Positions 3,923-8,508 of a stretch of DNA of 35,883 nt are shown piece after piece. Source of the stretch: a virus; IMG/VR virus record IMGVR_UViG_3300027976_000104, positions 1-35,883 of that record. One strand, 5' to 3'. Made by a program: the position numbers and the translations under genes. Each line of letters starts with the position of its first letter. Position 1 is the stretch's first letter. The notes under the pieces are model-generated. The model was not told where the DNA came from, did no database searches, and was given only the letters and a program-made list of their open reading frames with translations.

Positions 3923-6274
3923 TTAGGCAGCAATCTTATCAATAAATTTGCCAACCAGAACTCTATTCACAACTTTTGTTTTATTCACTTTCATAAATGC
4001 AGTCTTCAGTTTAGATGCCGTAACTTTTCCAGTTACCTCAACTTCAAGGTCAGGAGCATTTAAGTCTTTGCCTCCAAGAATCAAGTAGAAATCATCATAC
4101 TGTGGTTTTTTAGAAACCAATAATTTTTCTTTTCTGAATATTCTAACAATCTCTCTGTGATATTCCCATTTTCCATAACCCATTTCACCCACTGCGACTC
4201 CATCTTCATTTATATATTGTCTCCAAACCGCATCTTTAACTTCTCTAGCTTGAGGAGAAACAATATAAAAACCAATAATTTTAGAACCAGTAAACTTTTT
4301 ATACCAAGCCATAGTTTGTTGGAATATTTCATTCGTGTAAGTTGTTTTAATCTTGGCTGTAAATCTTATTGAATCATCTTTAAGAATTACATTTTCATCA
4401 GTAGGATTAATTCTAGCATTATGTAAATGCTCTGTTTGTTTATCCATAGGAACCAATCCGTTTTCATCACGTTCACGTGAATCTTTACCAAATTTAAAGT
4501 AGTCGTGACAATAATCAGCGTCACCATCATGAATGATTACCAAATTAACAATATCAAGACCTCTAGAAGCTTTGAACTCATTAGTATATTTACCAAGAGC
4601 AACCAATGCTTGAGTCAATGGAGTATTTGTTAATCTTTCAGACCTAGGAGCCTGAGGTCTATTCATAGAACTATATCTAATAGAATGGTCATATGATTTA
4701 GCTAACAGTAACATATTTTGAACTGCTTTTGTGTATTCTGCTTTATTCATATTTGAATTAAGATATTCTCTTAATACCACATTCTCAAGTTTTAAATCAC
4801 CTTTTTTAGATTCGAATGAATCAGGTATTGATTGTTTATTTGATTCATCATCAACATCTCTATCAATATACCATGTTGAACTAGTATCCGAAAATGTTTG
4901 AACTGTAAATGGAATATTTACCTTTCTACAAAAACTTGCAAGTATTAAAACTTGCTCAATAGCACCTGATATATTATCCCACATTGAACCAGAATAATCT
5001 AATAACAGAATCAGTCCGTGAGATTTCCCTTTAGGAATAATCATCATTTTTTTGAAAATGTCATCATTGAATTTATAAGAAGCCAGTTTGTTAATATCTA
5101 AATCGCCAGTGCTTGCTGTTCTTCTTTTGCCATAAACTTTGGCGGCTTTCTTCATTTCAAATTCTTTAGCAAGTAAAGCTACAAACTTATCATTCTTCTT
5201 TTTGAATTCTGTATAATTACTTTCTTTAAAAGTCTTCTCAAAGTATCCTTGTCTTTCTTGTTCAGCAAAAGCTTCAGTCAATAATTCCTGAACTCTTTTA
5301 GCTGGAGTAATAATATTCTTTAAGATTGGTTTAGGAAAAGTAACATAAACATATTCTTTACATTTTTCGTCAACTAATGTATTTTCATTTTCTCTATAAG
5401 CTTCATCAGTTAGACATCTTGGTTCGTTGATATCAATTTCTTCTTCTTCATATCCTGAATCTTTCTCACGATTGATTATCTGAGTTTCGCCATCTTCTTC
5501 TGTATCTTCAGCTTCATCTTCTCGTTCTTGGTCTGAGTCTGATTTATTCTCATTTTCATTTTCATTTTCTTCTTCGGAATCATCGCCAGAATCATTAGTT
5601 TCATAATCATCAGGACCAGTTTCGTCACCATCGGGGTATTCATAGAATTGTTCTTGTTGAGACATCATTTCATCTTCATATTCTAATTGTTCTTCAGTTG
5701 AATACGCATATACATCATTCGTAACTTGAACAACATCTGCCCATGATTCTGTATTTTTAACTCTATCTAATAATTTAGATTCTTCTTCATTAAAATCAAG
5801 AGGCATAGTATATTGTGATTTAGTGAAAAGATTTAGTCTGTCGATAAAAGCTAATTTGTTAGCATCTCTACCTTTAAGACCAAAGAAATCTTTTTCTCTT
5901 AAATCAGCATACGCTGTGTTGAATGATTTTTTTAGACCTGGATATTTTCTTTGTACACGCTTTTCAATTCTTGCATCTTCAATCACATTCAAAAAGTTTT
6001 TATAATTCTTACCTTTATTATTGATTGTGACAGCATCATGCCATCCTTCAGCTGGTGTATACAGAGCATGTCCAACTTCATGTCCGCAAAGCAAGTCATA
6101 AGTTGTACCAACCATATCAGTCCAGATTGGAAGATATAGAATTCTGTTTTTAGGGTCGAACTTTGCAGTAGAAATTTTCTGATGTTCGATTGTTAGATTT
6201 TCATTAGCCATCAGTTTTGCTAACTGAGACTTCTGTTCTTGTAGTACTAAATTGTCTTCTTTTTTCACTATCAT
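3923..6274 (-). CDS. cobT: CobT-like protein with zincin motif and VWA domain
   Basis: About 783 residues from the ATG at 6274. Residues 65-69 are HEVGH (zincin HExxH), followed by NVIEDARIE, a possible third-ligand region. A strongly acidic linker spans roughly 205-285. The C-terminal VWA domain begins LILLLDYSGSM, whose DYSGS (426-430) is a MIDAS metal site, with later TPLTQAL and HDGDAD segments. The VWA/acidic layout matches CobT, partner of the CobS AAA+ ring encoded next. I chose 6274 because the -10 box at 6282-6287 places transcription start at or one base before this ATG. An ATG at 6283 lies against the -10. The zincin part might make it a peptidase; this is inference. Confidence 0.75.
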   Translation of the reverse strand: MIVKKEDNLVLQEQKSQLAKLMANENLTIEHQKISTAKFDPKNRILYLPIWTDMVGTTYDLLCGHEVGHALYTPAEGWHDAVTINNKGKNYKNFLNVIEDARIEKRVQRKYPGLKKSFNTAYADLREKDFFGLKGRDANKLAFIDRLNLFTKSQYTMPLDFNEEESKLLDRVKNTESWADVVQVTNDVYAYSTEEQLEYEDEMMSQQEQFYEYPDGDETGPDDYETNDSGDDSEEENENENENKSDSDQEREDEAEDTEEDGETQIINREKDSGYEEEEIDINEPRCLTDEAYRENENTLVDEKCKEYVYVTFPKPILKNIITPAKRVQELLTEAFAEQERQGYFEKTFKESNYTEFKKKNDKFVALLAKEFEMKKAAKVYGKRRTASTGDLDINKLASYKFNDDIFKKMMIIPKGKSHGLILLLDYSGSMWDNISGAIEQVLILASFCRKVNIPFTVQTFSDTSSTWYIDRDVDDESNKQSIPDSFESKKGDLKLENVVLREYLNSNMNKAEYTKAVQNMLLLAKSYDHSIRYSSMNRPQAPRSERLTNTPLTQALVALGKYTNEFKASRGLDIVNLVIIHDGDADYCHDYFKFGKDSRERDENGLVPMDKQTEHLHNARINPTDENVILKDDSIRFTAKIKTTYTNEIFQQTMAWYKKFTGSKIIGFYIVSPQAREVKDAVWRQYINEDGVAVGEMGYGKWEYHREIVRIFRKEKLLVSKKPQYDDFYLILGGKDLNAPDLEVEVTGKVTASKLKTAFMKVNKTKVVNRVLVGKFIDKIAA

Positions 6275-6281
6275 GTAATCC

Positions 6282-6309
6282 ATTATACAGATTTCCATGC
6301 AAAAGTCAA
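6282..6309 (-). promoter_or_regulatory. Sigma70-type promoter for cobT (leaderless mRNA)
   Basis: -35 TTGACT (6309-6304), 16-bp spacer, -10 TATAAT (6287-6282). The expected start point is 6275-6274, right at the ATG of MIVKKEDN. No Shine-Dalgarno sequence is present, so the message is probably leaderless. Confidence 0.75.
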
Positions 6310-6325
6310 GCACTTTCGAGCTTTT
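6300..6325 (-). repeat. 26-bp upstream promoter element, copy 2
   Basis: Exact copy of 3886-3911, placed the same way around the -35 box of the cobT promoter. Confidence 0.85.
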
Positions 6326-6371: not shown

Positions 6372-6440
6372 TGGAGCGGAGATTAGGATTCGCACCTAAA
6401 GAATTGACTGGACGCCACTTCTGTTCTACTACTTCTCCGC
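6372..6440 (-). tRNA. tRNA-Gly(UCC)-like RNA, second of two, probably non-decoding
   Basis: 69 nt. The acceptor stem GCGGAGA/TCTCCGC is perfect, followed by U73 and an encoded CCA. The T-arm is TTAGG-TGCGAAT-CCTAA: a 5-bp stem and a 7-nt loop with G at position 55 instead of U. The D region (AGTAGTAGAAC) has almost no stem and no GG. The middle arm GAAGT...AATTC has one mismatch and closes a loop containing CGTCCAG, with G rather than U before UCC. The glycine identity elements of bacterial GlyRS (G1-C72, C2-G71, G3-C70, U73, C35, C36) are all present. The architecture is the same as at 6447-6515, six bases upstream. Confidence 0.5.
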
Positions 6441-6446
6441 AAAAAT

Positions 6447-6515
6447 TGGAGCGGTGTGTCAGATTCGCACTGACTGATTAAACGGGAAGAATAATCTGTT
6501 CTATTAACCCACCGC
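6447..6515 (-). tRNA. tRNA-Gly(UCC)-like RNA, first of two, probably non-proteinogenic
   Basis: 69 nt. The acceptor is GCGGTGG/ACACCGC, with six pairs and a G-A mismatch at the last position; U73 and CCA follow. The D region GTT-AATAG-AAC is a 3-bp stem with no G18G19. The middle arm GATTA...TAATC (5 bp) encloses TTCTTCCCGTT; read as a 7-nt loop it is CTTCCCG, with U33 and anticodon UCC. The T-arm GTCAG-TGCGAAT-CTGAC has a 5-bp stem and again G55 for U55. It keeps glycine identity bases but lacks the G18-Psi55 elbow contacts of ordinary tRNA. It is the first product of the promoter at 6528-6555. Confidence 0.55.
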
Positions 6516-6570: not shown

Positions 6571-7851
6571 TTACCGACCAACTTGGTCTAGATAATAATC
6601 TTTAGTTTCTTCCCACGATAACACGGTTAAGTTATCGTAGAATAATGTTTCTGTAGAAACTCGGTTTGATTCTTTTAAATTTCTAATTCTCTTTGTTGCA
6701 TATCTTTCTTTCCATAAAGTTACCAGAGATTCAGTTGAAGTGTCAAATGATTTTACTAATTTATCTTCAGTGATATCCCCTCTTAAGAACTCGGCTGAAT
6801 TATTGTATAAAGGAGAAAAGTATATACCTCTGGCATGAGCTGATTGGGTTAATATTTTATCCATTTTCATTTGTGAATAGGCAAACGATAGTGACCTATT
6901 CTTATGGTCTCTTTTGTGTGGTTGTCCACTTGGTTTCTTTGCAACATACCATTCAAAGTATTTTCTGGTATGGTTTTTCTTTATCCAATCATTAATTTTA
7001 TTTCTGGTCACTCTTCTTGGTTCAAACTTAACTGAACCTGCAGTGAAACCCATTTTCTTCCAGTGTGTCAGTCTATCGTATTGTGATAGTCCATGAAGTT
7101 TCGCTTTGCCATATAAGGATGTAGTTGTGACGCCTATTAGCGTGTCACCATACAATTCTTTCCATAGTTTCTGTATCTTATCGTCTAAACATAATAATGC
7201 TAATAATTTACCACCTGTGTAGTTGTAACCTAAAGGTTGCAAAGGAACAATCGTAGAGCCAATCGCTGTATGATTAATCATTGAACCTTGTGTTTTAAGT
7301 TCTCTACTCCATCCAATAAAATTATCTCTAGGAGTTAAGTCTAGAAAGTCTGAAGAAATACAAATAACACCAAGATATTTTTTAGTTGGTTTGTCTCTAA
7401 CAATGAAGTTAAGATTACGACCAATATTAGAATTGTTTTTCATTGTAGATGAGAATGTTCTAATCACATTCCAGAGTTCTGGTAAGTCTTCTTGTTTGTT
7501 TGCATATATGAGTTCAGGTTCTATCTTCATAAACTCGTCTAAATCTTGTGGATTCCAAACATTGTTTTTAACTTCTTCAATAGCTATTCGTTGTTTATCG
7601 TTGGCTAAAACTTTCTTCTCGCCTTCCCATAAATCATTGACTATAGTAAATGGATATTTTTCTTGTACTTCACACCATTTTTGATATAATGTATATTCTT
7701 TTACATCCATCTTTGATACAAATTCAAGGTCTATAATAGTCTCTTGTTTGATTTGTTCAAAGTCGGGGTCATCCATATCCTCTACAGGATTGGCGGCTAA
7801 CCATTTATCCCACTGGACTTCTACATCATCTTTAGTATAATCTATTGCCAT
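6571..7851 (-). CDS. DUF4338-like (DruA-type) protein
   Basis: 426 residues. An acidic N-terminal third is followed by a core with YLGVICISSD, RDNFIGWS, INHTAIGSTIVPLQPLGYNY, TGGKLLALLCLD, KLWKELYGDTLIGVTTTSLYG, and RLTHWKKMGFTAGS. The order (IGWS; a hydrophobic strand ending near P; LL; W..YG; W...G.T.G) resembles DUF4338, the family of Druantia protein DruA, and has the look of a GNAT-type fold. The basic C-terminal part includes KPSGQPHKRDHKN. The ATG directly follows the deformylase stop (7852). It lies immediately before the promoter of the tRNA-like pair. The reaction is unknown; the family call is from memory. Confidence 0.55.
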   Translation of the reverse strand: MAIDYTKDDVEVQWDKWLAANPVEDMDDPDFEQIKQETIIDLEFVSKMDVKEYTLYQKWCEVQEKYPFTIVNDLWEGEKKVLANDKQRIAIEEVKNNVWNPQDLDEFMKIEPELIYANKQEDLPELWNVIRTFSSTMKNNSNIGRNLNFIVRDKPTKKYLGVICISSDFLDLTPRDNFIGWSRELKTQGSMINHTAIGSTIVPLQPLGYNYTGGKLLALLCLDDKIQKLWKELYGDTLIGVTTTSLYGKAKLHGLSQYDRLTHWKKMGFTAGSVKFEPRRVTRNKINDWIKKNHTRKYFEWYVAKKPSGQPHKRDHKNRSLSFAYSQMKMDKILTQSAHARGIYFSPLYNNSAEFLRGDITEDKLVKSFDTSTESLVTLWKERYATKRIRNLKESNRVSTETLFYDNLTVLSWEETKDYYLDQVGR

Positions 7852-8508
7852 TTAAACTTCATTCCACTTAAAATTGTTTTTCTGTTTTCTAGTCGCAGTT
7901 TTCATCATTTTATTTTGTTTCTTCTTCGCTAAGGATAACACAAGAGGAGACACTTTTGCGGTAAACTTTATTCCGTTCATGTGGTCTAGTTCGTGTTGAA
8001 AACATCTCGCTACCATTCCGTCTAAATGTTCAACCACAGTCTTGCCATCTTCGTCTTGGTATTCAACATCAATTTCTTCATGTCTTTTTACATTTAAGAT
8101 TAATCCAGGATAAGATAAACACCCCTCATTGAGTTTAATGTCATTTTGTCCGATTGCAACTATTTTAGGGTTAATACAAACCATCTCTAGACCTTGATGT
8201 GCAATTATAAACACTCTTGCTGGGACATTACATTGGTTGGCTGATAATCCAATACCACCAAACTTTCTCATGGTCATTTTCATTCTTGCTATTAACGTTC
8301 TCATATCTGAATTAGGTAAAGCTTCTTCATAATCAGATAGAGGTTCACTTAATAATGGAAGTTGGTCATCATACAAATCTAATGGTTCTTCTCTGATTTC
8401 TTTTACTTCTTCAGTTGGTGTTTCTTCAACTTCTGGTCCAAGGCCTTCTGCTGTATTATATGTAAACGTCACTCCGTCATCAGAGGTTATTGTTTTATCA
8501 TCACTCAT
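7852..8508 (-). CDS. def: Peptide deformylase with acidic N-terminal extension
   Basis: 218 residues. It has all three deformylase motifs: GGIGLSANQ (84-92; motif 1, GxGxAAxQ), EGCLS (128-132, Cys metal ligand) and QHELDH (171-176, HExxH type). It removes N-formyl groups from nascent proteins; marine T4-like phages often carry one. Residues 1-60 are an acidic extension with many Glu and Pro, which ordinary phage deformylases lack; its role is unknown. The C-terminus is basic (KKKQNKMMKTATRKQ). The start overlaps the end of gp46 by eight bases, so the genes are translationally coupled. Confidence 0.9.
   Translation of the reverse strand: MSDDKTITSDDGVTFTYNTAEGLGPEVEETPTEEVKEIREEPLDLYDDQLPLLSEPLSDYEEALPNSDMRTLIARMKMTMRKFGGIGLSANQCNVPARVFIIAHQGLEMVCINPKIVAIGQNDIKLNEGCLSYPGLILNVKRHEEIDVEYQDEDGKTVVEHLDGMVARCFQHELDHMNGIKFTAKVSPLVLSLAKKKQNKMMKTATRKQKNNFKWNEV

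Follow-up and report, generated by a model that had tools for sequence, protein, structure and literature searches.

Tandem tRNA-Gly-like RNAs beside a DruA-like gene in a T4-like phage, candidate glycyl donors for DNA modification

Introduction

The Fem-type transferases of Staphylococcus aureus have GNAT-like folds. The product of the DNA-modifying enzyme Mom is N6-(carbamoylmethyl)adenine. In the literature, the donor used by Mom is assumed to be an acyl-CoA such as glycyl-CoA (PMC7824862). Transferases that depend on aminoacyl-tRNA and act on peptidoglycan, lipids or proteins are well known, and in S. aureus some tRNA-Gly species are diverted from translation to such non-ribosomal use (PMC4052509). 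The glycine identity set measured in bacteria comprises U73, G1-C72, C2-G71, C35 and C36 (PMC9976931). We found no publication tying Mom to a tRNA in the open-access literature, where a recent paper could be missed.

Here we analyse a pair of small tRNA-like RNAs encoded in a 35,883-base IMG/VR virus record (IMGVR_UViG_3300027976_000104), the whole of which we call the window. Judging from the PHROGs matched by its genes (capsid, portal, sheath, terminase, SbcCD, late sigma factor), it derives from a T4-like myovirus, and its capsid protein shares ~60% identity with the capsid proteins of Methylophilales and Pelagibacter myophages. This lineage likely has Gram-negative hosts.

Results

The initial annotation of the window had described two 69-nt RNAs six bases apart, with GCGG...CCGC acceptor ends, U73, CCA, UCC in the loop and a UGCGAAU T-loop in both copies, and all of these features are seen in the sequence. 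Copy A (6447-6515) and copy B (6372-6440) lie on the minus strand, each 69 nt long including the encoded CCA, with a spacer of 6 nt; our family covariance model R2 recognises them with 75.7 bits (E 6e-17) and 72.0 bits (E 6e-16), respectively, and copy A is further backed by covariation. In copy A, an acceptor stem of 6 bp plus a G.A (6515-6509 with 6457-6451) is followed by a mini D-arm, GUU-AAUAG-AAC (6508-6498), a middle hairpin (6496-6476) with U33 and the UCC at its apex (6487-6485), a T arm (6474-6458) with the loop UGCGAAU, U73 at 6450 and CCA at 6449-6447. Copy B has an acceptor stem of 7 bp (GCGGAGA/UCUCCGC), a D region devoid of a canonical stem, a middle hairpin (6421-6401) with G33 and the apical UCC at 6412-6410, and a T arm (6399-6383) with the same loop, followed by U73 and CCA. 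The D-loop had been reported to lack GG; this holds for the D region of both copies, but the change goes further, the whole D arm having collapsed to a mini-hairpin of ~3 bp, and the anticodon stem is longer at the cost of the variable region. Neither copy has a full D arm or G18G19, and the elbow positions 54-56 read U-G-C in both. Single-sequence folding gave z values of about -2.7 and -2.9 for the two RNAs. In agreement with the suggestion that these are not ordinary tRNAs, ARAGORN called no tRNA gene in the window, and the pair had no Rfam match at gathering scores, nor any match to the Rfam tRNA model even at E<=10.

The strong promoter announced for the pair is also present: a sigma-70-type TTGACA-16-TATAAT sequence (6555-6528, minus strand), matching the consensus at 12 of 12 positions, reads into the pair from ~13 nt upstream of copy A, and similar promoter-like sequences occur between the DruA stop codon and the RNA in many related loci. 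A further strong promoter, TTGACT-16-TATAAT (6282-6309, minus strand), lies on the downstream side of the pair and either immediately precedes or coincides with the beginning of a PHROG_459 ‘peptidase’ gene (3923-6313).

The pair has relatives in many other phages. A spaced pattern made from copies A and B retrieved 60 IMG/VR stretches in which the element hardly varies in length; 12 of these have two matches in tandem, so that the tandem arrangement, whose presence in related phages had been left to be checked, does recur; a looser pattern brought in more subfamilies. Members are mostly 63-71 nt long and often tandem, single copies being common as well. Their architecture comprises, from the 5' end, an acceptor stem of 6-7 bp (GCG...CGC, U73, CCA), a mini D-arm of ~3 bp, one base, a middle hairpin of 5-8 bp with NCC at its apex, one or two bases and a 5-bp T arm. 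The mini D-arm takes the form GUU-N3-5-AAC or, in other members, GUC-CGA-GAC, GUA-AUAG-UAC or GGU-AUAGA-ACC. Covariation exceeded all 500 shuffles in each of three alignments (15, 33 and 43 distinct sequences) and supports all helices, including the mini D-arm, while slid controls collapse. In the alignment of 15 sequences, a gap-free MAFFT alignment in which the D-arm pairs hardly vary, 98% of cells are paired and 11 pairs show double changes. The two larger alignments are model-fitted and so lean towards the structure; covariation was seen there in 18/22 pairs with 33 sequences and again in 18/22 with 43, and in the larger of the two doubly changed cells number 224, compared with an average of 61 after shuffling. 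BLASTN searches of the RNAs against phage records found no true match, owing to the rapid divergence of the family. A single-pattern scan of bacterial and archaeal genomes yielded nine matches, none with a convincing acceptor stem (the best, L142, at 17.6 bits), and thus no cellular copy was found with that pattern. The family is conserved, covarying and widespread, and it is missed by ARAGORN and Rfam.

What this family keeps and what it loses are very different parts of a tRNA. Among 96 distinct members, U73, G1-C72, C2-G71 and G3-C70 are invariant (96/96), CC can be assigned to positions 35-36 in all 96, and CCA is encoded in 95. The glycine identity bases, said to be kept in the two copies, are thus kept throughout, and the family carries the bacterial glycine identity set, which suggests that its members may be charged with glycine. 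Such strict upkeep argues against a tRNA in decay. Positions 33 and 34, by contrast, are not fixed: at 33 there are 44 members with G, 39 with U and 13 with C (G33 or C33 in 57/96), and at 34 any base occurs, A among them in nine members. The register for positions 33-36 follows from the pairing of the stems and is approximate in the 63-nt subfamily. T-loops are mostly UGCGAAU or UUUAACU. Ordinary tRNA-Gly(UCC) genes called by ARAGORN, with a D-loop GG and a UUCGA T-loop, also occur in phages carrying the stripped RNA (L003, L021, L025, L029, L051, L065, L106 and L109), some of them only 5-7 nt from it; the stripped RNA is therefore no substitute for a missing tRNA-Gly.

Less reduced forms were seen as well. 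On the 4.4-kb contig L062, which has two Mom-family genes, the two tRNA-Gly-like RNAs of a tandem (573-727) form nearly complete cloverleafs; these RNAs are apparent intermediates between tRNA-Gly and the stripped form, and ARAGORN accepts the near-full cloverleafs of both L062 and L121. In L025, ARAGORN calls a tRNA-Gly(GCC) at 901-975 with the T-loop AUCGUUA, unlike its canonical neighbours, which may be another unusual tRNA-Gly.

The initial annotation did not mention any partner enzyme, and two kinds were identified here. In the window, a gene for a DruA/DUF4338-like protein of 426 amino acids (6571..7851, minus strand) ends 55 nt before copy A. It matches PADLOC DruA1 (E 6e-17) and Pfam PF14236 (E 7e-22; 78.3 bits against a cut-off of 27), the latter profile only in part. 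Among the first 105 loci, such a gene was the commonest neighbour (54 loci, with 42 members within 400 nt). Of 50 RNA-bearing records, 30 have DruA, six have Mom and none has both; among the 29 records of at least 16 kb these figures are 27 and one, 28/29 together, and the records devoid of either gene are mostly short fragments. In many RNA records where another gene stands next to the RNA, the DruA-like gene is found elsewhere. As possible partners we also weighed a SprT-like peptidase (cluster c6), a DUF7788/DUF2828 protein (c48) and a phosphoesterase (c53), but discarded them: their adjacency to the RNA resembles local synteny, and in the larger records of this type the DruA-like gene is encoded elsewhere.

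Conversely, we fetched 79 loci by the DruA-like protein alone and scanned them with R2, a model built from matches in these same 79 loci, which found the RNA in 72 of them (87 copies), invariably 3' of the gene and in the same orientation. Its median distance from the DruA-like stop codon is 48 nt, it lies within 200 nt in 68/79 loci, and R2 had no other match in 580 kb. By contig name, 15 of the 79 were already finds of the RNA pattern; among the other 64, the RNA is present in 57 of the 60 with room for it. R1, a model made from RNA-pattern loci only, gave 65 matches in the 79 loci at E<=1, and the sequences are visible by eye. Two Pelagibacter phages, Mosig and HTVC008M, carry the DruA-like gene in the same position with no recognisable RNA. 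Their pre-peptidase gaps (L171:4660-4810 and L172:4110-4260, respectively) hold short RNA-like motifs (AGAACA, GCUGUGCGA), matched by neither R1 nor R2, that are possibly a relic or a different RNA. A DruA search in nine bacterial genomes was uninformative, with no match there and none in the control genomes either.

Other DruA-like proteins also came to light. Besides the ~430-aa protein, many phages encode a second one of ~370 aa with a partial profile match (L063, L029, L059, L027, L047, L011, L085, L070, L113, L055 and L006, the same records as G001, G002, G004-G007, G009, G012, G014, G015 and G020). In Synechococcus phage S-SCSM2R (L176:4824-5945), the depositors labelled the DruA-like protein ‘methylcarbamoylase mom’.

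The 426-aa protein of the window was predicted by AF2 with a pLDDT of 82 and a pTM of 0.80; a model of the GNAT domain alone (residues 100-372) reached a pLDDT of only 58 and was set aside. The best VIA-align match of the full model is phage Mu Mom (8bv8, S124A; Z 9.5, rmsd 4.0, 173/202 residues, model residues 105-359), with other GNATs, including SpeG and many acetyl-CoA-using enzymes, within 1 Z of it, and Foldseek against the PDB returned mostly GNATs with weak E-values. The model thus provides good support for a GNAT fold over about residues 105-370, and is suggestive only of a specific relation between DruA-like proteins and Mom. Pfam found PF14236 and no Mom domain (PF25680) in this protein, and hhalign found no match between the DruA-like and Mom alignments. 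Among predicted viral structures, some of those nearest to the model come from giant eukaryotic viruses (Faunusvirus, Yasminevirus, Dasosvirus), with Foldseek E-values down to 8.5e-17 and 16-23% identity.

The second partner is Mom itself. Genes for Mom (PF25680) adjoin the RNA in unrelated phages, both among loci found through the RNA (L033, L062, L071, L086, L116 and L125; E 1e-32 to 1e-56) and in a search that started from the Mom protein, where 7 of 80 loci have the RNA directly 3' of mom (L260-L262, L274, L275, L277 and L280). The remaining 73 loci, like phage Mu, are without such an RNA, and a dedicated donor is therefore not obligatory. The RNAs of the seven loci include a further type, with the D-loop AAAAGU and the T-loop GGCAGUA. 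In L071 (4610-5416), the mom open reading frame runs through the RNA, and in L033 (5327-5412) the RNA lies just upstream of mom. One case is an isolate: Psychrobacter phage Y8A (OQ059336.1) has tandem RNAs at 7786-7853 and 7858-7926, recovered only with the covariance model R2, which begin 8 nt after WBF05279.1, a protein annotated as hypothetical that is a Mom (E 1.8e-55). The publication describing Y8A reports no tRNA genes by tRNAscan-SE (PMC10434257).

Discussion

Our analyses make it probable that the two RNAs are descendants of tRNA-Gly which, unseen by translation, act as dedicated glycyl donors for DNA-modifying Mom or Mom-like acyltransferases. The initial annotation had proposed non-proteinogenic RNAs providing glycine for a non-ribosomal reaction, and the comparative sequence data favour this idea: the identity bases are invariant, decoding features and elbow are lost, some phages have an intact tRNA-Gly nearby, and a neighbour of acyltransferase fold, true Mom included, is constant. 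With no elbow and often no U33, the RNA is expected to be a poor substrate for both EF-Tu and the ribosome.

A fuller scheme, which we favour with somewhat less assurance, is a tRNA-dependent modification of phage DNA in which a host-charged mini tRNA-Gly feeds Mom and DruA-like enzymes to make a glycine-derived base, glycyl-tRNA being also the donor of the classical Mu Mom reaction. The host glycyl-tRNA synthetase would charge the RNA, and weak EF-Tu binding, together with the lack of U33 in most members, would keep it out of translation. The neighbouring GNAT would then lift glycine off the CCA end and move it to a base of the phage DNA, most simply the N6 of adenine, as in phage Mu. Adenine glycylated at N6 is an isomer of N6-(carbamoylmethyl)adenine (+57 Da), and glycyl transfer followed by an internal N-to-N shift via a five-membered intermediate would therefore explain the Mom product. 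DNA modified in this way would resist host restriction. Tandem copies and a strong promoter would enlarge the donor supply. A dedicated RNA would matter where the donor limits the reaction, and Mu and other phages that do not encode one would draw on host tRNA-Gly.

Alternatively, the glycine could be destined for something other than DNA, the DruA-like enzyme glycylating a protein, an RNA, a lipid or a small molecule. The GNAT fold is generic, the substrate of the DruA-like enzyme could differ from DNA, and aminoacyl-tRNA-dependent transferases with such substrates exist (PMC4052509). We nevertheless regard this as unlikely, given that RNAs of this kind also stand beside Mom, whose family modifies DNA, and that peptidoglycan bridges would make little sense in hosts that are probably Gram-negative. 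The initial annotation had also mentioned a decoy, that is, an RNA that occupies glycyl-tRNA synthetase or absorbs a defence nuclease attacking tRNA-Gly. Phages are known to counter tRNA-cleaving defences by bringing tRNAs of their own, and the strong promoter, the tandem copies and the retained glycine identity would suit such a role. We find it improbable all the same, as it explains neither the fixed place of the RNA behind Mom or DruA-like genes in unrelated phages nor the strictness of U73 (96/96) and of the encoded CCA (95/96). The bases round the anticodon are also variable.

We give even less credit to an unusual but working elongator tRNA-Gly for phage translation, comparable to the armless mitochondrial tRNAs, despite the U33 and the UCC or CCC anticodon of some members and the nearly full, ARAGORN-accepted cloverleafs of L062 and L121; against it stand G33 or C33 in 57/96 members, A34 in nine, the changed T-loop and D arm, the intact tRNA-Gly of the same phages and the constant enzyme neighbour. 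Finally, an antitoxin-like or regulatory RNA of the neighbouring gene is hardly believable: tandem structured RNAs with their own promoter beside one gene do recall type III toxin-antitoxin systems, but in those systems the antitoxin repeats precede the toxin gene and show no conserved tRNA identity bases or CCA, whereas the RNA described here lies 3' of the gene, is commonly single and conserves both.

If these RNAs do act as glycyl donors for DNA modification, they would be the first case, to our knowledge, of DNA modification dependent on aminoacyl-tRNA. Non-proteinogenic tRNA-Gly is already known; proof that DNA modification can depend on a tRNA would establish a new category. An RNA dedicated to Mom and DruA-like enzymes points to glycyl-tRNA as the donor instead of the presumed acyl-CoA (PMC7824862), a question that can now be tested with one isolated phage, Psychrobacter phage Y8A, and it offers a mechanistic lead for DruA-like proteins. 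It would also provide a natural case of how far a tRNA can be stripped down and yet hold its glycine identity. In addition, these sequences add a widespread RNA family that tRNA finders miss, as the Y8A paper illustrates (PMC10434257).

Comparison with known systems

The canonical tRNA-Gly of phages shares with the stripped RNA the acceptor stem, U73, CCA and C35C36; it differs in having a full D arm with GG, a UUCGA T-loop and U33, and in being called by ARAGORN. Likeness to DruA of Druantia (PF14236, DUF4338) lies in the matches of the window protein to the Pfam and PADLOC DruA models; unlike the Druantia gene, that of the window matches the profile in part, is paired with the RNA and sits among ordinary T4-like phage genes (PHROGs). 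As for Mu Mom (PF25680; adenine N6-carbamoylmethylation), it is a GNAT, like the predicted fold of the DruA-like protein, for which 8bv8 is nominally the best match, and in several phages an RNA of this kind comes directly after a true Mom gene, Mu itself being without it. A close parallel for the RNA is the non-proteinogenic tRNA-Gly that serves FemXAB in the pentaglycine bridge of S. aureus: G18G19 is replaced there as it is in both copies and in the family, and the staphylococcal tRNA has features of its own that are expected to weaken EF-Tu binding, leaving its glycine to non-ribosomal transferases (PMC4052509). That system is chromosomal and linked to Fem, whereas the RNA described here is phage-borne, linked to Mom and DruA-like genes and often tandem, with a D arm of ~3 bp and a free position 33.
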